Source: Flammula alnicola (Eukaryota > Basidiomycota > Agaricomycetes > Agaricales > Strophariaceae). From it: a stretch of 64,000 nucleotides of DNA. Below, piece by piece: positions 28,162 through 61,558 of the stretch. The stretch's first letter is position 1; each line of letters opens with the position of its first letter. The DNA is taken from the NCBI GenBank assembly GCA_015499995.1, contig JADNRV010000161.1:1-64000 (forward strand), given 5' to 3'. Below the pieces are notes generated by a model. The model worked only from the letters and a program-made list of their open reading frames with translations. It was not told where the DNA came from and searched no databases. Position numbers and translations under genes: made by a program.

Positions 28162-30544
28162 ATGCCAAAGCGTGGGCCTTGGAAACCTCCTGTCTATGTC
28201 GGTCCTCCCCTTGACAATACCCCCGAAGCGGTTCCTGCCTCTCGAGGTCACCGTTCCAGGGCCAACTGCGCTACCTGTTTCGACCTCGATCTACGATATA
28301 TCCCGCAGCCCCACAAAGATGAGGACAGCTGCTCGATGGGTCAGATCGCACGGCACTGGATCACGTACGCCGATCTGGCCAAGGATCCGTCTTGCGCATC
28401 CTGCCGCTTTCTGAAATCAGCCTTTGACACCCTGGTCAATTCCGGCGAAGTTATGGACATTCCTCCGGGAAGAGAGATAAGATATTCAATCGCGATATTG
28501 GATAGAGACGATGGTGATGCCGAGGATGCCGTCGCGAGGAAAAAGAGAAGAGAGGCGGCAAGAAACAGCGAGGCCTCGAAGAGTTTGAAGGTTGAGATGA
28601 GGTGCAGCGCAGAGAAGAGGGGCAGTAATGACAGCGGATTCCAGGAGGAGTTCGAGCTCGAGATCTACACGCCACCAGGTGGTGAGTTCGTCCCATGTTC
28701 TCGAATTGATTTTGCGCTGATAGGTTGGATGAACAGCGGCCCCAGCACCGTGGAAGGCTATCGGGGCGGCCGGTGAAGTTCCTACAAAGCCCAGCGGGGA
28801 AGAGTGTGCAGCAATCATCAAACCGTGGTTACAGGACTGTGACAAAAACCATGCGTTGTGCCGCAGTGCAGACCATCAGGGAGAGCTTTTGCCACGGCGC
28901 GTCCTGGACTTGTCTGGTGGGCAGATCCGGCTTATCGAGACAACCCAAGGGCAACGCGGCCACTACGTTGCGCTGAGCCACTGCTGGGGAACGGAGCAGC
29001 TGCTGACCACGACACGACTGACGATTGCCGAGCATATGCATCGTGGTATTCCAATTGAGCGGATGCCGAAGACTTTTCAAGACGCTGTGGCAATCACACG
29101 GGGCTTAGGATTGCGATATATTTGGATCGATTCACTGTGCATCATACAGAAAGTTTCGCCTTCGGAGCCAGATGTCATAGCGGCTGCGGATTGGGAGCAA
29201 CAGAGCGCTGTCATGGCGGATATATATGCACACTGTTATCTGAATATCGCGACAACGCGGGCGGCAGGCGGACATGCGGGGTGTTTGGGGCCCAGATGGA
29301 CCACAAGGGATTCGCTTCGATGGGCCGAAGAATTTTCCAGAGCGGTAGACGACGGGGAAGGGAAGAGAGAGCGGGTGTCCAGGACGAGGAAATGCGAAGT
29401 CAAGTCGTTCAAGGTACCAGGAATGCAGCAGGATATACGCATCCGGCTTACAATGAAGTCGTCCCACGAGGCTTTGCAAACGCCTCGATGGATCCGTATG
29501 CATATGGACACGGCACCGCTGCTGCCCCGCGCATGGGTGTATCAGGAACGCTCCCTCGCAGCACGCTCGGTCCATCTGCACGCCAACGAGATGGTCTGGG
29601 CGTGCAACGTTACACAGCGATGCGAATGCAAAGAACTGGATGGAAGTCCACCCGATGGCGATGGCTGGAGCGCGACCAAGGACCGAATCGCGAAGCTGGG
29701 CGTTCTGAATGACAAGAAAGCATTGCATGGGCTCTGGAGGACGATTGTCGAGGACGTTAGCTTGCTGGATCTGACCTACGAGTCTGATCGGCTCCCAGCT
29801 CTTTCTGGTCTGGCATACAGATTTGCGGAGTATTTACCCAAGAATGAGCGGTACCTTGCTGGTTTATGGGAAGGCGATCTGGCCCGCGACCTCTTATGGG
29901 AGTCTGGAGGCAGCAAGCAGACGGCAGGACCTACGAGAGGCCGGAAACCTTTCAATTTGAAAGAAGGGCCTTTGACCGCGCCGTCCTGGTCATGGGCATC
30001 CCTGGTGTGGGGAGGCAACGATGCCAGCGGGATAGACTGGGAATACGAGACAAAGCCGAAGCTGGCGGAATGGGGAGGGACAACGAGCTACAAACAAGAC
30101 CCCCGTACTCGGATCATCAGTGCTTCGGTTGATATCAAGGGGCAGAATAAGTATGGCACGGTCCATGGTGGGCGCATCGTCATCGAGGGCGCCATGTGTG
30201 CCGTCGTGGTGGGGAGGTCTCCTCGGTCCCCGCCTTCCTGGTTAGCCAACGTCACGACCGTAAAAGAGGGCATCTTCAACTCGCTCCACCTCAATTACGA
30301 TACACCTACAGCTGAGGCATCTGCAGGTGGAACCGTTTACTGTCTCTTCATCGGCTCATTCAGCGAAGTTTTTGATCACGACAAGCACCCTCACATCAAA
30401 CATCAAGGATTGATATTGAAACCGACTGCTGGAGGAGCAAGATTTGAAAGGATTGGGCGGTGGACCCAGCACATTGAGGATTGGGTACACAATAAGGATG
30501 TGTGGACGAGGAAGTCGGGAGTCATGAGAGTCGAGATTATCTGA
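28162..30544 (+). CDS. HET-domain (heterokaryon incompatibility) protein
   Basis: Two exons, 28162-28681 and 28737-30544, encode 775 residues; the ATG at 28162 starts MPKRGPWKPP. The N-terminal part has a Cys pair pattern (CATCFDL, then CASCRFL) that precedes HET domains in many Agaricomycete members. The HET domain core follows: YVALSHCWGTEQ, then TFQDAVAITRGLGLRYIWIDSLCIIQ, then a WVYQERSLAARSVH block. The C-terminal 250 residues have conserved Trp-rich segments (PSWSWASLVWGG). HET-domain proteins act in fungal nonself recognition and regulated cell death; partners and trigger cannot be told here. It has no adjacent NLR or SesB-type gene. Confidence 0.93.
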
Positions 30545-39922: not shown

Positions 39923-41193
39923 TCAGACAGCAGTCTGTGGAGGGGCAACGTCATCCCAGATCTGGTTAGAGTTTCCAGTACAGTTCCAGATCTGAAGCTA
40001 AATTAGAGGTGGAATCAGCATCGTAAAGTATTAATTATACGGAGCCGACCTCAAGCTTACCGGATTTCCCCTGGTCGTAATTCCATCCGTCAAGTCAACA
40101 CACATTGGGATTGCCAAACCGGTGCCCTCCCATCGAATAGTTCCAGTGGGAATCCAATCTTGGTTTATGTTCGCTGGGTCGCAGTCCCAAAGCTGTAGCT
40201 TCGTACCGGGAGTGGTATTCCCATTGGTAAGGTCGAGACACTTAAGAGGGGGAGAACCGTCGGGACCGAAGGCGAGCTTGTAGCTTCCAGAATTGCCGTG
40301 ACCAATTTGTGGAACGGTCCATACTTTCAGAGCGGTGGTGTCGCTGCAAGATGTGATAAAGACTGGGGCACCGTTTTCTGAAGAGTCGGCTGCCATGCAG
40401 AATGCGGCTAGTAGAGTAGAAAGTATAATTCAGTACGTTTGAGTTGGAGGACATAGGTGAATATAATCACGTTGTGCGGCAATGGCAACCTCGGATATAG
40501 GGCTATACAACTCGAGTCAGTGATGGAACTCGTCAAAGAAAGGCTGACTTACTTTGCCAGGGTATTCGACGTCCATTGCTGGTTAGTGTTTCCAGCGAAA
40601 CAAGTCCAAATTTGTATCTGGAAGTTGAAATGAAGTCAATGAGCATATGCATATGTTGGCCAATCCGGAAGAAATAAGTGACCTGATTTCCATTCTCCAA
40701 ATCACCATTCGTCAGGTCAAGACACTTGTTAGTACCAGACCATACGACAGTTCCATCCGCATTCCACTCCCACAACTGGTTTGCGTCTCCGGCTACACAG
40801 CTGTTGATTTCGACCTTCGTGCCGTCTACATCGGCTCCACCAGTCACCTCAAGACAGAATGAGTTGAAGATTTTGATGGGGCCGGGAGTGCCTTCACCCG
40901 TTGTCGCGCCTCCTTCAACAACTTGAAATCCGCGTTGTTGAGTTGCAGCGCTACAGTCATTGATGACGAGGGCTGAACCGTTGGCTGCACTGAATACTGT
41001 GAGGCAAGGCGTGCGCGGGAAGGATCCGCGGGTTATGGGCTGGAGTTGAACGAACTCATTTGCGCTGTGGAGATTATAGATAAACGGGTTAGCAAGGATA
41101 GAGTGTGATACATGCATTAACTTACGGAGGAAGTGCAGCACGAACAGCGGCTGCCGCTGTAGCAGCCGACAAGAAAGATGTTAAGTAGCGCAT
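39923..41193 (-). CDS. Secreted ricin-B-type lectin (beta-trefoil, CBM13-like)
   Basis: Minus-strand gene starting at 41193 with a signal peptide (MRYLTSFLSAATAAAAVRA). Several exons carry QxW-type repeats: CLEVTGG...ANQLWEW, KCLDLTNGDLENGNQ with IQIWTC...NQQW, KCLDLTNGNTTPGTKLQLWD with NQDW, and MCVDLTDGITTRGNP with LQIWNC...NQIW. At least four trefoil lobes are visible. It ends DDVAPPQTAV at 39923. These are carbohydrate-binding proteins without an enzymatic chain. The last intron uses acceptor AATTTAG to give LQIWNC. Confidence 0.88.
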
Positions 41194-43599: not shown

Positions 43600-44178
43600 A
43601 TGTCTTCGCCAGTGGTTTACTTGTCGCGCACATTTTACATATCAGCCGCACATCGACTTCATTCGCGGCGAATGACCGCCGAAGAAAACGATACTGTCTT
43701 CAAAAAGTGCGCCCGGATGCATGGGCACAATTACACATTTAGAGTCGTTGTCAAAGGAGCGGTGAGTGAACCCGTTGTGAATTTGGTTTGTCTGTCACTG
43801 AGAAGTTTACTTAAATATAGGTGGAAGAGAGAACGGGGATGCTGGTCAGCGTAGATATTCTGAAGCAGATTGTGCAAGAGATGATTATTGGTCCCTTGGA
43901 TCATCGTAATATTGTGGGCGCACTTCACTGAAATTTGCACTTGTGCACTGATCAGTGATTGGTTACGTATGTAGGATGAGGACGTACCTTTTTTCTTCGA
44001 CAAGCCGTCGACGATGGAGAATCTCGCCGTATTTGTGTGGGGGGAAGTGAAGAAAGGGATGAGGAAGCATGGGGTTTCTCCGGATATCCTAGACGAGGTC
44101 GAAATATACGAGACGAGGGACAATGCGTTGTCGTATAAGGGGGAAGTAACAACTAGGTCGATAACACCAGAGCTGTGA
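43600..44178 (+). CDS. 6-pyruvoyl-tetrahydropterin synthase (PTPS)
   Basis: Three exons, 43600-43761, 43821-43913 and 43975-44178, encode 152 residues. The start MSSPVVYLSRTFYISAAHRL follows family length. Zinc-ligating His residues appear in SAAHRLHS and MHGHNY, the catalytic Cys in KKCARMHGHNY, and the conserved VSVDILKQIV, PLDHRNIDEDVPFF and PSTMENLAVFVW blocks are intact. The enzyme converts dihydroneopterin triphosphate to 6-pyruvoyl-tetrahydropterin. In fungi its physiological use is less clear than in animals. Its last exon is partly duplicated in tandem immediately downstream. Confidence 0.94.
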
Positions 44179-44369
44179 TGTCAAATGTCAAGCACTTGCC
44201 GTCTTTGTGTGGGAGGAAGTGAAGAAGGGGATGAGGAAGCATGGGGTTTCTCCGGAGATTCTGAACGAGGTCGAGATATACGAGACGAGGGACAATGCGT
44301 TGTCGTATAAGGGGGAAGTAACAACTAGGCCAAGAACACCAGAGCCATGATGTCAAATTCCGAGCACTT
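44026..44369 (+). repeat. 172-bp tandem duplication of the PTPS last-exon end
   Basis: Unit 1 is 44026-44197 and unit 2 is 44198-44369, both starting GCCGT and ending GAGCACTT or AAGCACTT. Unit 1 holds the last 50 codons of PTPS and its stop; unit 2 repeats them in an open frame (VWEEVKKGMRKHGVSPEIL, ending TPEP) with its own stop. Unit 2 lacks the VPFFFDKPSTMEN segment. The units differ at about a dozen sites. Confidence 0.92.
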
Positions 44370-44471
44370 GCGTTCGTCTCAAGAACTTCTATAAATCCTA
44401 AACCCTGTTCAATAAACCATTTAGCTTCTATAGATCTATTCCATGATCCTTCCAGTGTTATGCAAATCCAT
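44179..44471. other. Convergent intergenic region with duplicated exon
   Basis: Holds the second 172-bp unit, then about 100 bp to the HIS5 stop. No other feature was seen. Confidence 0.5.
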
Positions 44472-52155: not shown

Positions 52156-55100
52156 ATGGCAGAGACTCAGAGCAGCAAGGTTGCTCCGCGCAACAACAAC
52201 GACGACGACAATGACAGCGGAGAAGATACCGGAGGTGGGCGCTTAGGGTGAGTTTACTGTTTCGCTACTTGCTCTGGCAAGACCGCGCACTGAATCACCG
52301 ACTCGTGGCTACAGAGGCACGTCTATCGGTGGCGGCGGGGCTGTAAGCGGCGGCGGGGGACGAATTGAAGGGGGCGGTACCACGATCATGGAAGACAACA
52401 ATGCAGTGAGTACCGCTTTCTCCTTGAGCGAACGGTAGACTACGGAATTGACTAAATATTGCTCCAGGCATTGCGTGTTCAAGGGCGCGGCACCGCGATT
52501 AGCAGTAATGCAGAAGACAACAAGGCAGTGAGCAGTGCATTCTCCTTGAGCGAACGGTAGACTACGAATTGACTAAATATTACTTCAGGCATTGCACGGC
52601 ATGCTCAGTGGCGGTGGACCTCTGAGCGGCGGCGAGGGACAAATTGAGGGGCGCGGGACGGCGATCAAAGGCGAGGTGGAAGACAACAATGCAGTGAGCA
52701 GCACATTCTCCTTGAGCTCACGGTAGATGACGGAATTGACTGCATTTCTCCAGGCATTGCATGTTCAAGGGCGCGGCACGGCGATGGGCGGTAATGCAGA
52801 AGACAACAATGCGGTGAGCAGCTCATCCTGCTTGAGCTCACCGTAGACTATGAAATTGACCGCGTTGCTCAGGCATTGCACGGCATGTCGCTCAGTGGCG
52901 ATGGACCTGTACGCGGCGGCGGGGAACAAATTCAAGAGCGCGACACCGGGATTGGTGGCAATGCAGAAGACAGCAAGGCGGTGAGCAGCTCATCCTCCTT
53001 GAGCTCACCGTAGACTACGAAATTGACTGCGTTGTTTTAGGCCCCACAAGGATCTGATCCAGCAACGAAATTGAGAGATGACACACAGACAACCGGAAAA
53101 AGTAGGTTTATATATAGAAGCCATGAGTATATTGCTAACATTAAATACAAACCTTGCAGGTACTGGGGCAAAAATTGCAACTAAAGTAAGATCTAGGCTG
53201 GCCCAGCTTGGACGTACATTGCTTACACCAATGAAGCAGAAGAGCCCAACTCTTGCAGCTGCTTCCTCTTCACCTGGTCCTTCTGCAGCTGCTCCTTCTG
53301 GACAGAGCCAGCTTCAGAGTAAACTTGAAGGACTCGAGGCTGCTTTGAGATATCTGGAAAATGCTTTGGCAAATGTCCCACCTGATCATCCTAATGTTTC
53401 TACTTGGCAGATGAATCTGACTGCACTCAATGTTTCCCACTATGAGATATCTGGCAATCTGGATAATCTGGAGGCTGCTTTGAAGTTTGGACATCAGGCT
53501 TTGGATAGTGTAACTGCTTCGCACTCTGAAATAGCTCAGTGGCAGTCAATTCTAGCTAAAGCTCACAGTTACCACTATCAGAAACTGGGCTTTTTGGATG
53601 ATCTTGAGGCTGCTATATTATATAGAGAACAAGCTCTGAAAAATATGCCTTCTGAACATCCTGATAAAGCCTTTAGGCAGGCAAATCTGGCAACTGAGTA
53701 TAGTGAGCGCTATAAAAGACTGGGTGATGCTAGTGATCTTGAGATTGCTTTGAAGTTACAACACCAAGCCTTGAACAGCACATCTAATGCTAAACAATCT
53801 GATATATTCAATTGGCAGAACCAGCTTGGGACACTTTACAGCTATCGCTATAAAAGATTTGCTAAGATAAATAATCTTCAAACTGCTGTGAAATATAGGG
53901 AGGAGGTATTGAAAAATGTTCCTCCTGGATTTTCTGATATATTCAAATTGCAAAATAATCTTGCAAACTCATACAATGATCGCTATGAGGCATTGAATCA
54001 TTTGGAGGATCTTGAGTCTGCTTTGAGATTAGGAAAAGAGGCTTTGTCAAATGTACCTGCTGGACACTCTGATCTATCTAAAGTGCTACAAAACTTGGCT
54101 GAATCATACACTTATCATTATAAAAGATTTAATAATGAAAGTGATCTTGAGAATGCTATAATGCATCAAGAACAAGCATTGAAAAACACAGGTTCTGGGC
54201 ACCGAGATATATCTTTACGTCAGGACAGTCTTGCAGCACAATATATTCTTCGCTATGAAAGATTCAACAGTGTGAATGATCTTGAAACTGCCTTGAAGCT
54301 CCGAAAACAAGCCTTGAAAAATGTACCAGCTGGTGATTCCAATATACTCCAATGGGAGTCAAATCTGGCTGCAACATATCTTCACTATTATGAAAGGTTT
54401 AGTAACATGACTGACCTTGAGGATGCTTTAAAACTTGGAGAACAAGCATTGAAACATACACCTTCTGGTCATTCTAGTATATCTACAAGGCAGGCAAATC
54501 TAGCAATCCTACACTTTCATCATTATGAAAGACTGGGCAATGTGAATGACCTTGAAACTGCATTAACCTTTCAAAACCAAGCCTTGGATAATACACCTGT
54601 GAAACATATTGATATATCTTTACGAAAGGCAAATCTAGCTTCATTCTACAGTGCTCGCTATCGAAGACTGGGTGATTTGGATGACCTTATGCATGCATTA
54701 AAGTACAGAGAAGAAGCCTTGAAAAACCTCTCTTCTGAACACTCTGATGTGCCTTTACGGCAGGCAAATCTAGCAACATCATATACTGATCGCTATCAAA
54801 GATTGAATAATTCAGATGATCTTGAAGCTGCTTTAAAACTTCAAAAGCAAGCTTTAGATAATATACCTCTGGGGCATTATTATACCTCCACTCTACAAGC
54901 AAACCTGTCTATATTATACCATTATCACTATGGTATATCAGGTGATACATCTGATTTGAATGTTGCTTTGATGTTTCAAAAGCAAGCTTTGGAAAACACA
55001 CCTTTGGGGGATCCTGAGAGATACAAATGGCAAACAAATCTTGCTATGATATATCTTGGCCACTATAACATATATAATGATGTGAAGTACCTTGAAACAG

Positions 55101-56887
55101 CATTAGAAGTCCAAAAACAAGCCTTGGAAAATATATCTGCTGGTCATCCTGGATTTTTATATGCTAATAGAACTTTGGCTGCACTTTACATTAAAATGTA
55201 TCAAAGCTCGAAACAAGGAAGTGATTGTGCTGAGGCAATATCATATGCAAGAATAGCTATTACTGCAGCATCTGACTCACCATCTGCATGGATAGTTGCA
55301 GCTGATACAGCACAACTATTTGAAGATTTTGATTTATCAGTGTCCTTTGAGGCTTATACTGCAGCATTCAAGTCTTTATCTGATTTGATCTGGATTGGCA
55401 CATCTCTCACAACTAGGCACTATAATATGAAAAAGCACAATATTCATAAAATACTTTCCTCAGCAACAGCAATTGCAGCTCAGTTAAACAAAACTCAATT
55501 TGCTATTGAACTTTTGGAGCAGGGCCTCTCTATTACCAGCCAACAATACAGAATGCTGAAAGCAAGATATAATGACTTGTTAAGCAATTATCCAGTTGAA
55601 GCTGCTGAATTTGAGAGAATTTCATACCTGCTTTTACATGCTGATGATCCTGATCAGACAAAGAAAGAAAATATCAGTTACAATCTTCTTGCAACCCAGA
55701 GAAAGAACTTGATTGCATCTTTAAGAAAAAAAGAAGGATTAGACAAGTTTTTGCTTCCAGCATCATTTGCAGAACTATCTGCAGTTGCTAAAGAAGGTCC
55801 TGTAATTTTGCTGAACTGTGCGTCTCTCAGAAGTGATGCATTTATCATAATTCAATCATCTGAAATAGTGACAGTACATATGGTTCCTCTTCACTTTACT
55901 GATAAAGAGGTTGAATCAAATCTTGGATTTTTAAAGTCTACACTTCAACATTACAGACAATATATCCAAGATGACAGTGACCGATCTATGGTTCCATATC
56001 ACAAAAAATCAAAGGACATTTGCTCATGGATGAAAGAGAAAATTGTGGATCCTGTTTTCAATGCTCTTCAACAGGTATGTTTTTATTTTTATTTTTTATA
56101 TACATATATTTATATTGTTCTTTAGAATGGAATTGTCTCTGGGAGAATATGGTGGTGCACTTCAGGTGTTTTGACTCCTCTGCCACTTCATGCAGGTGCA
56201 CCTATTGAAAGTCCATACATTCAATCATATACTTCAACTCTACAAGGTCTCATTAAAGCAAGAACCCAGGCCATAGAAAATGGCCCTATTCTTGCTACAG
56301 CTGTTGGAGTCAGCAAAGCTTCTTCTCATTCTGGACTATCAAGTCTTCCAGGGATCAAACCAGAACTTGAAGCAATTAAATCTATATTTGGCCAGGACAA
56401 AGTTGTACAGCTTTCTGGATCAGATGCAACTGTGGAGAATGTACTTGATTATATGAAAAAATCCTCATGGCTCCACCTTGCATGTCATGGTGTGCAAGAC
56501 CCTTTAGACTCATTAAAAAGTTGCTTGCTGCTTGACAATGGAAAGCTTGAGCTGAAAAAGCTTATGACTGAGAATTTACCCTTTGCCAAATTTGTCTTTC
56601 TTTCAGCATGTCAAACAGCCATGGGAGATAAAGAGCTTGTTAATGAGTCCATGCACTTGACAGGAGGATTTATTACTGCAGGGTTCCAAGGAGCAATTGG
56701 AACATTGTGGACAATGAAAGATTCAGATGGGCCTACAGTTGCAAAAGGTGTTTATGAAACAGTTTGTAATAAAGGATATCCAGATCCTACCTTGGCTGCT
56801 GAGGGTTTGCATCTTGCAGTCAAGAAGCTTCGCCAAAGTGGTGCACCTTTTGAAAGATGGGCACCTTTTGTTCATTTTGGAATTTGA
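52156..56887 (+). CDS. TPR-CHAT protein: tandem-exon Gly-rich N-terminus, about 14 TPR units, C-terminal CHAT protease-like domain
   Basis: Nine exons: 52156-52247, 52315-52405, 52468-52527, 52589-52693, 52754-52813, 52873-52980, 53041-53101, 53160-56074 and 56126-56887. Together they are 4254 nt, divisible by three, for 1417 residues. Residues 1-190 are Gly/Asn/Asp-rich and built from repeated modules ending in EDNNA or a close variant. Residues from about 230 to 900 are some 14 TPR-like units of 45 residues, each with a DLExALKxxxQAL start and a QxNLAxxYxxRYxR end. After a helical region, the last exon opens WWCTSGVLTPLPLHAG, a CHAT signature. The catalytic His is in LHLACHG (about residue 1285) and the Cys in FLSACQTA (about 1326). 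CHAT proteins are caspase/separase-like peptidases; this one would be a TPR-sensed protease switch. Exons 1-7 are GC-rich and exons 8-9 AT-rich. The substrate is unknown. Confidence 0.93.
52315..53040 (+). repeat. 287-bp tandem repeat of exon-intron modules in the TPR-CHAT gene
   Basis: Exon 3 to exon 5 starts are 286 bp apart and exon 5 to exon 7 starts are 287 bp apart. Exon 2, 4 and 6 ends are 288 and 287 bp apart. Each unit has a 20-codon exon (ALHVQGRGTA...EDNNA type) and a 35-36-codon exon (ALHGM..LSGGGP...EDNNA type), each followed by a 58-62-nt intron that begins GTGAGCAG (GTGAGTAC in the first) and contains CTCCTTGAGC and GAATTGACT. All these introns are phase 0, so gain or loss of a unit keeps the reading frame. 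Confidence 0.95.
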
Positions 56888-59135
56888 AATTTGTTGGCTT
56901 TCATATTTCAATGCATAATCCAATTTTTTGTGTGAATTACTTTTTGTCTTCTTGTTTTGTTAAATCTTGTTATTCTTGTCTTATTTTTTTTGTTCTCTGA
57001 TTTTTTGACTGCACTGTCAGTAGCTATCCATATTGAATTTTGCTTTCCATTCCTTTCTATAAAACTCCTGTTACTTGATTTTTCTTCTCTCCCAGTTTCA
57101 ACAAATATTTACAAGGCAGTGATGCATCTTTTGTTTACAATTTGTAGGATTTTTTGTTCACTTCAACAGTGAATATAGTTTCTGGATTCCTTCTTCAACA
57201 GTTGGGATATCAATTCCTTTTTCTAATTTTGAATTTGTCTTGTAGTATTTTGTATCTGTGGGTTTTGTGTTAGTTTGTAAAAAAAAAAAAAGCAAATTGT
57301 TTTGTTTGAAAATAGGTTTTAAGTATCATAGATTCATAAAATCTGATAGGTAAATGCTAGGGTTCAGTGGTGCTCAATTTTTTGTCAATGGTTATATGCA
57401 ACTGCTGCTGAAGAGACTCTCAATTTCGGTTGGTGAAATTTCACTGAATGCGCAATGTGCAGGAAATCAGATCTGCTGGAATTAATTGTGGCGAACAGTT
57501 CAGTGGACAGTTCAGCAGACGGGTCATGTTTTTTGTTTTTGTGATGATTGTGATGACTGACGCTCCTGGCGTCGTCGCTGCTCATCACTGTGGGGATCGG
57601 CATGGCCTGATGAAAAACTATAATATTTGGCTATGTTTGTCCTTCACCCAACCTCTTGTTTTCATCAGTTCCTCCTCATTCAAGGCCGTTTCCTGCTCTC
57701 CCATCCCACTTATCATACTTCTGAATACATAGAACATATTTCATGGACGTAAATAATATGAATATTAAGTTTAAACATTGTAAAAGGGCTAGATAGTGTC
57801 AGACATTACTTAACTGGAACTTGGAAGTTGAGCTCATTTCGTACATGCCCTCAGAAATTCTGAATAGTACTGCAAGCCTTGAAGAAATTGCTGAAGCTGA
57901 GAAGATACCTGTAATCATAAATCCATGTTCTTAAAGGAATTGGAACCAAAATATGAGCAAATTTAAGCTGGACATCAGTGGGCAGTGTTGAATGTGTTGC
58001 ATCACCGACATGCTCTGAAGAACAACCAGCCTTGAGAAGCTCAGGAGGAAGCCTGAGCCAGCTTGCAATCATAAAGAAGTCTCTCAGCTTGTTTCAAAGA
58101 TTTTCATATGTTATCTGAAGATGTAGCCAGAGGTAGGTTTAGATCCTGAGATCTTTCATCCATTTGTGCAGTATTCTCAGATGTTGCCATAGATTACAGC
58201 ATCCTTTTGGTGAATTTCATGGACATGAGAAGTAACTTCATTCTTATGCCCTCGTATTATGGCTTCCAGATCGTTAATAGTCACATTTTATTGGACTGTC
58301 AAAGTTCTGCTTTCAATTTGGTGTCGAGTTTTTGCTACAAAAGCAAAAGTTGGCAGAGTTCATCCAGAGTCATCATGAAGCTTTCGACAATTTCTAAGGG
58401 CCTGAGTATGAGCCTTCGGTGCAGCAGTTTAAGGAACCATTTGAGAAGAGAAATACAGCTATATGCGAGCAATTAAAGCACAATAGAAGTAAAAGGAAGA
58501 GGGATTATAGGACTTTGGATGAGTACTCAACTCAACAGCTGGTTGATTAAATGGCCCTTCACAAGCCTGACAGCGGATGGCTGCTTGACGTCATCTGACA
58601 TCATTCCTCCCATTCCTCTTCACCAGAAGGCATGGAATATGTTCTTGAATTGTTTCTTTGTTGTGAATTTTGATTTTCCTCCATTTCAGTGTGGTCAGAT
58701 TGTTTTTGCTGATGAAACTTTCCTTCAGAGATGGAGATTTTGAAAATTTGGCGATCCACAAAAAAGAAAATCTTTCTAAAGATGTTTTACATTTTCTACA
58801 AATTTTTGGGCATTTGTTTCTTGATGTGCAAGTCCGGAGTCAATGAAGTAAAAGTACCTGATTTGAGGAACCAGCGTTTAGCAGGGACAAACAAGGAACA
58901 AATATCATGCTTTTGGAACAGGCGATGCCCATCCCCAATCACTGCCGCCAGCTGCCGCCGCCGTCGCATGCGTGTTTCATTTCCACGCATATAGGATCAC
59001 ATGGGGATGCGTATCTTTGCGCTCTGAGTCTTATGCGGCCAATTCAAAAGCACTTCTCAGGTTTCCTCCAGACCACATTCATTGCACACACACAAAGAAT
59101 GTGCGCATGGCTAGTAGCTACATCATCTGTATATA
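56888..59135. other. AT-rich region downstream of the TPR-CHAT gene
   Basis: 2.2 kb of AT-rich sequence with T-rich runs. One degenerate stretch at 58350-58560 reads FIQSHHEAFDNF, then GPEYEPSVQQFKEPFEKRNT with stops, and may be a decayed gene of unknown kind. No intact gene is seen. Confidence 0.4.
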
Positions 59136-59710: not shown

Positions 59711-61158
59711 TCTGTTTATTCACTTGAATTTACCATGAATTTAACACGGCTGTCAGCTGCGCTAAATTTGAGATTCGCGATCTGACAGCGTGACAAAGGG
59801 TTGTACCCAGGGTCGTATGCACCTAAAGAGCTTCATCACTAAGTCTGGGTGCCCCCAGGGTTGTTATCACACACAATAGGATGCAGTGAGGTCAGTAGAA
59901 TATGTAGAAATAAGGCCGCAGGCTGAGAAATTTTGTATTGCTTTGTATAGTAAAAATGTATAGTAAGCTAACAAAAAAAGTGGAAGGGAGCTAATGTAGC
60001 TGTGCAGCGAGAAAAAAAACAGTGGAACACATGAGCAGGCAATGCCATCCACTGAACCAGCAGCAACAGGAGAAGGTGATTGCATAATGTCAGAGGAGGG
60101 GCACGCCAGTTCGCGACCAGGGTCTGGTCTGAATTGATCAATCGCAAAATCCAGACGCTGCAGGCAGCGAGCTGGCTTTTCCGAGTCTCCATTCTGTGTT
60201 CCGCCAGCCCAATTTAAGATTTGAACCAGCCCAATTTAAAGAATTTAAGCAATTTAAGCTTAATTCCTACTTTCCTTAAATTTGGGCTCAGAATCCTTAA
60301 ATTCATATGTAGCGCTCATAATTTGCCCTCGGAGGCTTCATATTCATAAACTTAAGCTTGAATTACATCTAAATTACATCTAACCTACTACTATTTTGTG
60401 TGAGGGATTTGTGCGAGGGAGGGGATGGCAGGTGCTCTCCTCGAGGGCAGATGGCGAGAGCAAGGAGCAGCACGCGCGCGAGTGCACAGCGTGCCTGCCT
60501 GCCAAAACGGTAAAACCCCCGAATGCAGGCCGAAGGTGGGGCTATGCGACCACCAAATGCGGATTCCAGAAAGTTCCGTATTTCGAGAGTCCGCCCCTCC
60601 ACACTGTCCGCCTGTCCACACGTCCCGAACAGGTGGCTGACAAATTTCAGTAAAGCCTGCGAAAATCACCTCTCGTGATCAACGCGCACGCGTCCACGCT
60701 CGACGCGTCGAGCTTATCCTCTACGTTGCAATAGTTCAAAAACTATCCCTCTATTCACCCCCGCCTTTATCATAATATAAGATGTTTCCCCTATGAACAC
60801 TACTAGTCTACTAATTCAAAAATTTACTGTAATTACCTGCAAAATGAACATAAATTACTTGCTGCATTGGATGCAATGGTGAGGACCAACAGCATATCTC
60901 GCCTTATGAAAATGAAGTTGAAAGTGCCAAATCTCTTCCAAATAAATGCCTGCTTCGACACCATACTCCTATCACACGGTACTCCATCAATAAATCAGTA
61001 TTTATATTTAAATTTACCTAGTTTTGATTTTCTCAAAAGTTTACATATCATCAGTGCACTGTGACCCTATTTTCTTATACACCGCCATCACCGATCAATG
61101 GCATGATCGCGGCATACCATAACAGGCAAGGGCCCTGACCTGGGCCCTTAAATTTACG
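59711..61158. mobile_element. 1.45-kb insertion inside the PUP1 pseudogene, putative transposon
   Basis: Bounded by an 8-bp direct repeat, CAGATAAG, at 59703-59710 and 61159-61166, exactly where GSTDK and KLPYVT should be adjacent. An 8-bp target duplication is characteristic of hAT-type DNA transposons. No transposase reading frame was found and clear terminal inverted repeats could not be recognised, so this would be a non-autonomous or decayed element. The interior is AT-rich with repeated CAGCCCAATTTAA and ATTTAAG motifs near 60208-60265. Confidence 0.65.
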
Positions 61159-61558
61159 CAGATAAGTTGCCGTACGTCACCATGGGATCCGGAAGTCTGG
61201 CTGCCATGGCTGTATTTGAAACCGGCAGGAAGCCCAATATGGAGGTCAATTCTTTCCTCGTTCTCAGTGCACGATTGTTAAAGATTATCCATTTACAGCG
61301 TGAAGATGCATTGAAGCTCGCAGTCGCCGCTGGTATCTTCAATGATCTTGGCTCTGGTTCCAATATCGATGTGTGCATATCACCGCCAGCCACACCGAAA
61401 TGCTCAGAAACTTCGAGATGCCGAACCAGCGTGTTCAGAAGGAGCGAGACTATAAATTCAGGAGAGGGACAACAGCATGGAAGAAGGAGGATATTCGCAA
61501 GTTCGTTGTTGATGAGCAGTTGACACTGATTGGTGGAGATGAAATGGATACTTCCTAG
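61159..61558 (+). pseudogene. PUP1 pseudogene, 3' part
   Basis: Continues the same beta-2 subunit: [20 protein letters not shown], then [36 protein letters not shown], a frame shift near 61372, then [20 protein letters not shown] and [12 protein letters not shown] ending GGDEMDTS. Together with 59136-59710 it makes an almost complete but interrupted gene. Confidence 0.92.

Follow-up and report, generated by a model that had tools for sequence, protein, structure and literature searches.

The 5' end of a TPR-CHAT gene in the window (the whole 64,000-nucleotide stretch of Flammula alnicola DNA analysed here) is formed by an intron-containing intragenic tandem repeat, which very likely arose by the mechanism proposed here, in which exchange between modules is only suggested. 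The DNA unit would be a phase-0 exon together with its intron, copied in tandem before this genome's two haplotypes parted. The short class of modules would most simply go back to a single deletion of about 45 nt, copied afterwards, a step that would need pairwise copying or exchange between modules. Upon splicing, the product would carry, before its TPR and CHAT parts, an N-terminal arm of about 140 residues that is acidic, rich in Gly, and free of aromatics. This arm would most likely be a flexible or weakly self-associating tether tolerant of sequence change, with the TPR region sensing and the CHAT domain cutting a cell-death substrate.

Gene model and tandem modules

The gene model spans positions 52156–56887 on the + strand, where all its parts lie, and comprises nine exons that encode 1417 amino acids in haplotype A. 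The copy of haplotype B, on contig C534, likewise has nine exons and encodes 1422 amino acids, and the reading frame is open in both. The exons follow the order leader (E1), repeat modules (E2–E6), linker (E7), TPR region (E8), and CHAT domain (E9). Exon 1 (52156–52247) bears the predicted start codon and an Asn/Asp-rich leader (beginning MAETQSSKVAPRNNNDDDNDSGEDTGGGRL), a feature of the model that is unchanged in haplotype B (L009). Exon 2 (52315–52405), defined by the gene model and the haplotype alignment, is the first long-type module, with 30 residues in haplotype A and 35 in haplotype B. It is followed by the short exon 3 (52468–52527; 20 residues, ALRVQGRGTAISSNAEDNKA), the long exon 4 (52589–52693; 35 residues), the short exon 5 (52754–52813; 20 residues), and the long exon 6 (52873–52980; 36 residues). 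Intron comparison and splice signals delimit the repeat introns, namely intron 2 (52406–52467; 62 bp), intron 3 (52528–52588; 61 bp), intron 4 (52694–52753; 60 bp), intron 5 (52814–52872; 59 bp), and intron 6 (52981–53040; 60 bp), the last of which closes the repeat family. Exon 7 (53041–53101; beginning APQGSDPATKLRDDTQTTGK) is a linker outside the repeat. Exon 8 (53160–56074) holds the TPR region, with a 135-nt repeat spacing (Pfam TPR_10, 4e-08), and exon 9 (56126–56887) a CHAT caspase-like protease domain with the motifs ACHG (His) and SACQT (Cys).

Judged from splice signals and reading frame, the gene structure is very likely as modelled, and an internal start within exon 8 could bypass the array. 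As the initial annotation had it, repeated exon–intron modules form the N-terminus of a TPR-CHAT gene. Its statement that all introns are in phase 0 applies to introns 2–6; among the eight introns of the gene, intron 1 is in phase 2 and intron 7 in phase 1.

The array runs exactly from the start of exon 2 (52315) to the end of intron 6 (53040), and consists of five head-to-tail modules, each made of an exon and an intron of 59–62 bp. Tandem Repeats Finder (TRF) reports a 287-bp period at 52391–53030 with a score of 801 and 80% matches, whereas the best array found in 200 dinucleotide shuffles of 52156–53160 scored 50. The module exons alternate as long-short-long-short-long (30 or 35, 20, 35, 20, and 36 residues). 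The alternation of two classes described earlier holds for the exons and agrees with the TRF period, but not for the introns, which are most alike between neighbours (2 with 3, and 5 with 6). The repeats were also said to end in EDNNA or a close variant, and in haplotype A the ends read, in order, EDNNA, EDNKA, EDNNA, EDNNA, and EDSKA. The majority module core is IQGRGTAIxGNAEDNNA, of which only the E, the D, and the last A are invariant across the ten module exons of the two haplotypes. Short modules are devoid of about 15 residues of the Gly-rich lead present in the long ones, and GTTCAAGGGCGCGGCA together with an identical gap is common to both short exons in both haplotypes. Exons E3–E6 are symmetric (0-0) and their lengths are multiples of 3; since the repeat introns are in phase 0, the gain, loss, or skipping of a module would keep the frame. 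Whole-genome DNA and protein searches (74.4 Mb, 861 contigs) detected no further module copies, the only good matches being the two alleles.

All ten repeat introns of the two haplotypes have a GTGAG donor and an AG end, and all keep a TTGAC whose A lies 13–16 nt before the intron end. Reading through any of the ten hits an in-frame stop at codon 11. Introns 2–6 had been called near-identical, which overstates their pairwise identity of 71–92% in one comparison and 75–92% in another. A kept frame, constant intron signals, and exon indels in multiples of 3 are the pattern expected of a spliced coding array; these features, together with the codon-11 stops, support the predicted splicing in vivo.

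In fungi, short introns are generally recognised by intron definition, under which exons are seldom skipped. For this reason, combinatorial exon skipping, through which one allele would also yield arms with fewer modules, appears unlikely, despite donors and acceptors that are alike across the array and the symmetry of E3–E6. Such a process would resemble that described for the human polyubiquitin gene UBC, where stochastic splicing varies the number of monomers (PMC10809524).

Two haplotypes and the history of the array

The window contig and the C534 copy probably represent haplotypes rather than a duplication, given their collinear matches on either side of the gene. Compared position by position across the haplotypes, the modules are, in order, 90, 98, 98, 98, and 99% identical, against 70–86% for non-partner modules, and this closeness of positional partners places the array before the haplotype split. 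Exon 2 is longer by 15 nt in haplotype B (3 + 12 nt as aligned), the difference lying inside the exon, and the length of intron 1 differs by 5 nt, distributed over three places.

Both haplotypes hold the same five modules in register, with no allelic difference in copy number (n = 2), despite 98 differences over the 2915 sites of exon 8. This argues against a selected, fast-changing length polymorphism, in which unequal exchange would vary the module number and thereby diversify a nonself sensor, as do two further properties of the array. The divergence between haplotypes is uneven, and the segment from E3 to intron 7 (9/692) falls below both exon 8 and the segment from E1 to intron 2 (22/312). 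In addition, repeats in fast turnover should show a higher mutual identity than the 70–86% found between modules. The symmetry of the exons would favour such a polymorphism, and repeat-number polymorphism has been described for the TPR, ANK, and WD repeats of fungal NLRs (PMC4986451).

The relationships among modules bear on both readings. Ranked by identity, the exon cores of both haplotypes form the pairs 3/5 and 2/4, and their introns the pairs 2/3 and 5/6, although intron 2 of haplotype B is nearly equidistant from intron 3 (0.89) and intron 4 (0.88). Four topologies were compared by the AU test, for exon cores and introns separately. The intron-like tree fails for the exon cores (p 0.0007) and the exon-like tree for the introns (p 0.004), a preference for different trees that would favour turnover by exchange. 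However, the tree {2,4},{5,6},3 is rejected by neither (p 0.20 and 0.30), so that a single module history, with one common tree fitting exons and introns, is compatible with the substitutions. This common tree weakens the case for exchange between modules. Past exchange is nevertheless suggested, and stays a fair suggestion because a single history would need the short gap to arise twice, or the lead to be regained in module 6. The GTTCAAGGGCGCGGCA stretch and the gap shared by the short exons would have their simplest origin in one deletion that was later copied. Intron 2 of haplotype A agrees no better with its own allele (55/62 positions) than with intron 3 (55/61), which weakly points to a possible recent short conversion. 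The earlier proposal that the N-terminus is expandable by unequal exchange is thus upheld as regards the symmetric modules; past exchange is only suggested, and present expandability is not supported, given the equal copy number of the two haplotypes (n = 2).

When the haplotypes are aligned by codon, E2–E6 differ by 14.5 nonsynonymous and 3.5 synonymous changes (pN/pS 1.33), and in the nucleotide alignment by 15 mismatches, eight of which are within E2. Elsewhere, pN/pS is 0.30 in E7–E8, 0.92 in E9 (six changes), and 0.25 in E1 (four changes); the contrast between E2–E6 and E7–E8 is small, with p = 0.04 or 0.07 according to how the changes are rounded. In the ungapped exons E3–E6, seven of seven changes are nonsynonymous, against approximately 51 of 98 in E7–E8 (p = 0.016), and introns 3–6 differ at 2 of 240 sites. 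The module exons tolerate amino-acid change. This nonsynonymous excess would suit a diversifying sensor, but relaxed constraint explains the changes as well as diversifying selection does, since seven out of seven is also an outcome of weak constraint. Taken together, a length polymorphism under selection holds a small share of the probability, and the array is better read as an old intron-containing repeat whose copy number agrees in the two haplotypes.

The N-terminal arm and the TPR-CHAT body

The arm holds 24–26% Gly, has a net charge of -8 to -10, and contains no aromatic residues. It has no Pfam match at E ≤ 10, and among solved structures only designed proteins match it, with E values no better than 0.75. 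Single-sequence searches of the genome, which could miss distant partners, yielded no second gene with the arm motif; after the two alleles, the next match has an E of 2.14 and 26% identity. No effector gene sharing the motif was found in the genome either, where only the two alleles match well, and a search of Pfam gave the arm no match to a known amyloid motif family (HRAM, PP, sigma, or PUASM). On a scale of the AGGRESCAN type, used with no amyloid positive control, the arm has 0 hotspots and the TPR part 28.

These properties bear on the proposal that the Gly/Asn-rich period forms a beta-solenoid or an amyloid-signalling motif, for which the Pfam, structure, and partner-gene searches and the hotspot count (on that uncontrolled scale) gave no support. 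The core [IV]xGxGTAIxGN, in which Gly residues are spaced and several modules have a GN pair, would fit a functional amyloid or beta-solenoid signalling domain that is built of one rung per 20-residue core and seeds the assembly of either the protease or a partner. Comparable features have been described in the N-termini of NLRs from Agaricomycetes, which bear amyloid-like motifs, some of them with a G[DN] pair (PMC9815663), and in HET-s, whose two 21-residue pseudo-repeats form one rung each (PMC7889193). Set against the lack of aromatics, the strong negative charge, and the absence of any matching family, structure, or partner gene, this reading is quite unlikely. A flexible or weakly associating tether is proposed as the role of the arm, with modest confidence.

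Regarding the rest of the protein, the CHAT match (PF12770, 2.5e-31) reaches 109.6 bits against a curated cut-off of 24, and ACHG and SACQT align with CHG and GACET of the TPR-CHAT structure 7zoq. Their His and Cys are presumably the catalytic residues, and the TPR-CHAT structures 7zoq and 7y9x (Csx29) go by the name craspase. A Pfam scan of residues 1–240, exon 8, and exon 9 found TPR and CHAT above the cut-off and three other matches below it, and no NACHT or NB-ARC domain, for which reason the protein is not classed as an NLR. In Podospora, a TPR-bearing CHAT protease has been described to activate a gasdermin (PMC12881547). With this precedent, a putative cell-death protease is the natural reading of the encoded protein, its protease activity being predicted from the domain match. 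With a gasdermin gene within 10 kb in mind, ten reading frames flanking the gene were scanned; their one Pfam match is an aminotransferase and no gasdermin was identified nearby, in a general Pfam scan that could miss intron-split genes.

Several other features lie in the window. A reading frame with a HET (heterokaryon incompatibility) domain (PF06985, 6.4e-25) occupies 28733–30541, some 22 kb before the start of the CHAT gene; this frame and the short introns are in keeping with a filamentous fungus, probably a basidiomycete. A frame with a ricin-type beta-trefoil lectin domain (1.9e-12) lies at 40536–41180 on the - strand. At 44026–44371 there is a 172-bp tandem duplication of two copies (90%), in a stretch that reads like the C-terminal end of a putative pterin synthase. 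Downstream of the gene, 57453–58980 (approximately 1.5 kb) and 59711–61159 (approximately 1.4 kb) are matchless in the examined stretch of the other haplotype; parts of them recur at many places in the genome, and they are probably mobile or repeat DNA.

The genome contains 35 CHAT matches, two of which are the alleles studied, and 20 of the other 33 were examined. TRF detects 135-bp arrays of up to 20 copies in the TPR stretch of 14 of these 20 loci; one of them (L041, C701:230710-240700) holds about 20 TPR units of 135 bp with a 90% match. In the window gene the TPR units are diverged, with 62–73% to the reference copy of the first family. An array like the one studied was not found upstream of any of the 20 loci, as judged by TRF and a scan of the upstream DNA for Gly-rich segments. 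Other short upstream arrays occur at five of them, of 151 bp (L025), 40 bp (L030), 55 bp (L037 and L043), and 88 bp (L044), and those of L025 and L044 show no frame-keeping exon–intron unit. Four CHAT matches of the genome (G000; C534:133318-133902, C13:450645-451055, C13:484842-485246, and C389:7598-8002) each have a 199-residue open frame and one TAA within the match, and represent broken copies or contain an intron.

GC and GC3 fall sharply from the array (52156–53040) to the TPR-CHAT body (53041–56887). GC3 is 0.59 in E1–E6, 0.28 in E8, and 0.26 in E9, and the GC content of introns is 0.43–0.54 for introns 1–6, 0.31 for intron 7, and 0.12 for intron 8. For comparison, GC3 is 0.46–0.58 in the stop-to-stop frames of 12 of the 20 other CHAT loci examined, and 0.48–0.76 in seven other reading frames of the window. 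The overall GC of the TPR-CHAT stretch is 0.48–0.53 in 17 of the 20 other loci measured, against 0.38 and 0.41 here; some of these comparison loci are probably mutual alleles, so that not all are independent. With the body out of line with other CHAT loci and the 5' array in line with them, a chimeric origin of the gene is a fair inference, and the gene may be chimeric. As regards the source of the AT-rich body, the bacterial relatives of the CHAT exon are only 26–31% identical (15 loci), in a scan that reaches only relatives with shared short peptides, whereas the closest CHAT loci of the same genome reach up to 41.6%. Those bacteria are thus not the source, and another fungus is a conceivable one.

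A composite reading would have the arm consist of self-assembling rungs, one per symmetric exon, with their number set by intron–intron exchange and perhaps by skipping, and would have it fused to a compositionally foreign TPR-CHAT body. It is very unlikely; if true, the rung number would set the assembly threshold or the specificity of the TPR-CHAT protease. Lastly, an independent spread of introner-like elements into the gene is hardly credible as the source of its several similar introns, and was rejected, since the exons are repeated along with the introns, the array DNA occurs at only two places in the genome (both alleles), and the genome search found no intron copies in unrelated genes.

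Comparison with known intron-bearing repeats and CHAT proteins

The closest likeness to the array is CNN00420 from Cryptococcus neoformans, another basidiomycete gene, whose repeated DNA unit contains an intron and whose introns are identical or near-identical within the gene (PMC2395259). There, the repeat is polymorphic, its number varying by strain, whereas the two haplotypes agree here, and the description of CNN00420 makes no mention of TPR or CHAT in the part that is available. Repeated exon–intron units are also described in the spider silk genes Argiope MaSp2 and flagelliform spidroin, where repeated introns bound the coding repeats and some genes alternate two exons and two introns as the unit (PMC9779670). 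However, introns of these genes average 97.6% alike within a gene (94.3–99.7%), compared with 71–92% among only five here, and the silk genes encode animal structural proteins. The same source cites SOWgp from Coccidioides, with fungal repeats in concerted evolution, among cases of homogenised introns; unlike the protein studied here, it is a surface protein.

On the protein side, the WD, ANK, and TPR repeats of fungal NLRs belong to recognition-type proteins with repeat-number polymorphism (PMC4986451). Those repeats are C-terminal, and introns in the unit are unmentioned in the portion of that source at hand, whereas the modules of the present gene are N-terminal and match no known fold. In the structures 7zoq and 7y9x (Csx29), as here, a TPR region precedes a CHAT domain that bears His and Cys motifs, and fungal CHAT proteases are described as activators of gasdermins (PMC10197012, PMC12881547). 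The present gene differs from these in being fungal and in having a repeated N-terminal arm that is unique in its genome.

Modules that include their introns had been called unusual, which calls for some qualification, as a few such cases have been published, among them CNN00420 (PMC2395259) and spider silk (PMC9779670). In the literature searched, which covers few subscription journals and in part only sections of the papers, no TPR-CHAT or NLR gene is described as having modules that carry introns. The gene presents such modules cleanly in two haplotypes, within what is putatively a fungal cell-death protease. As the array keeps its copy number and register across the haplotypes while the gene around it has diverged, it also provides a direct test of whether introns within coding repeats promote or restrain exchange. 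The change of composition where the array gives way to the TPR-CHAT body hints at a way in which such sensors may gain new N-terminal parts. The array joins the known intron-bearing repeats, to which it adds a new gene family and an equal copy number in two haplotypes.
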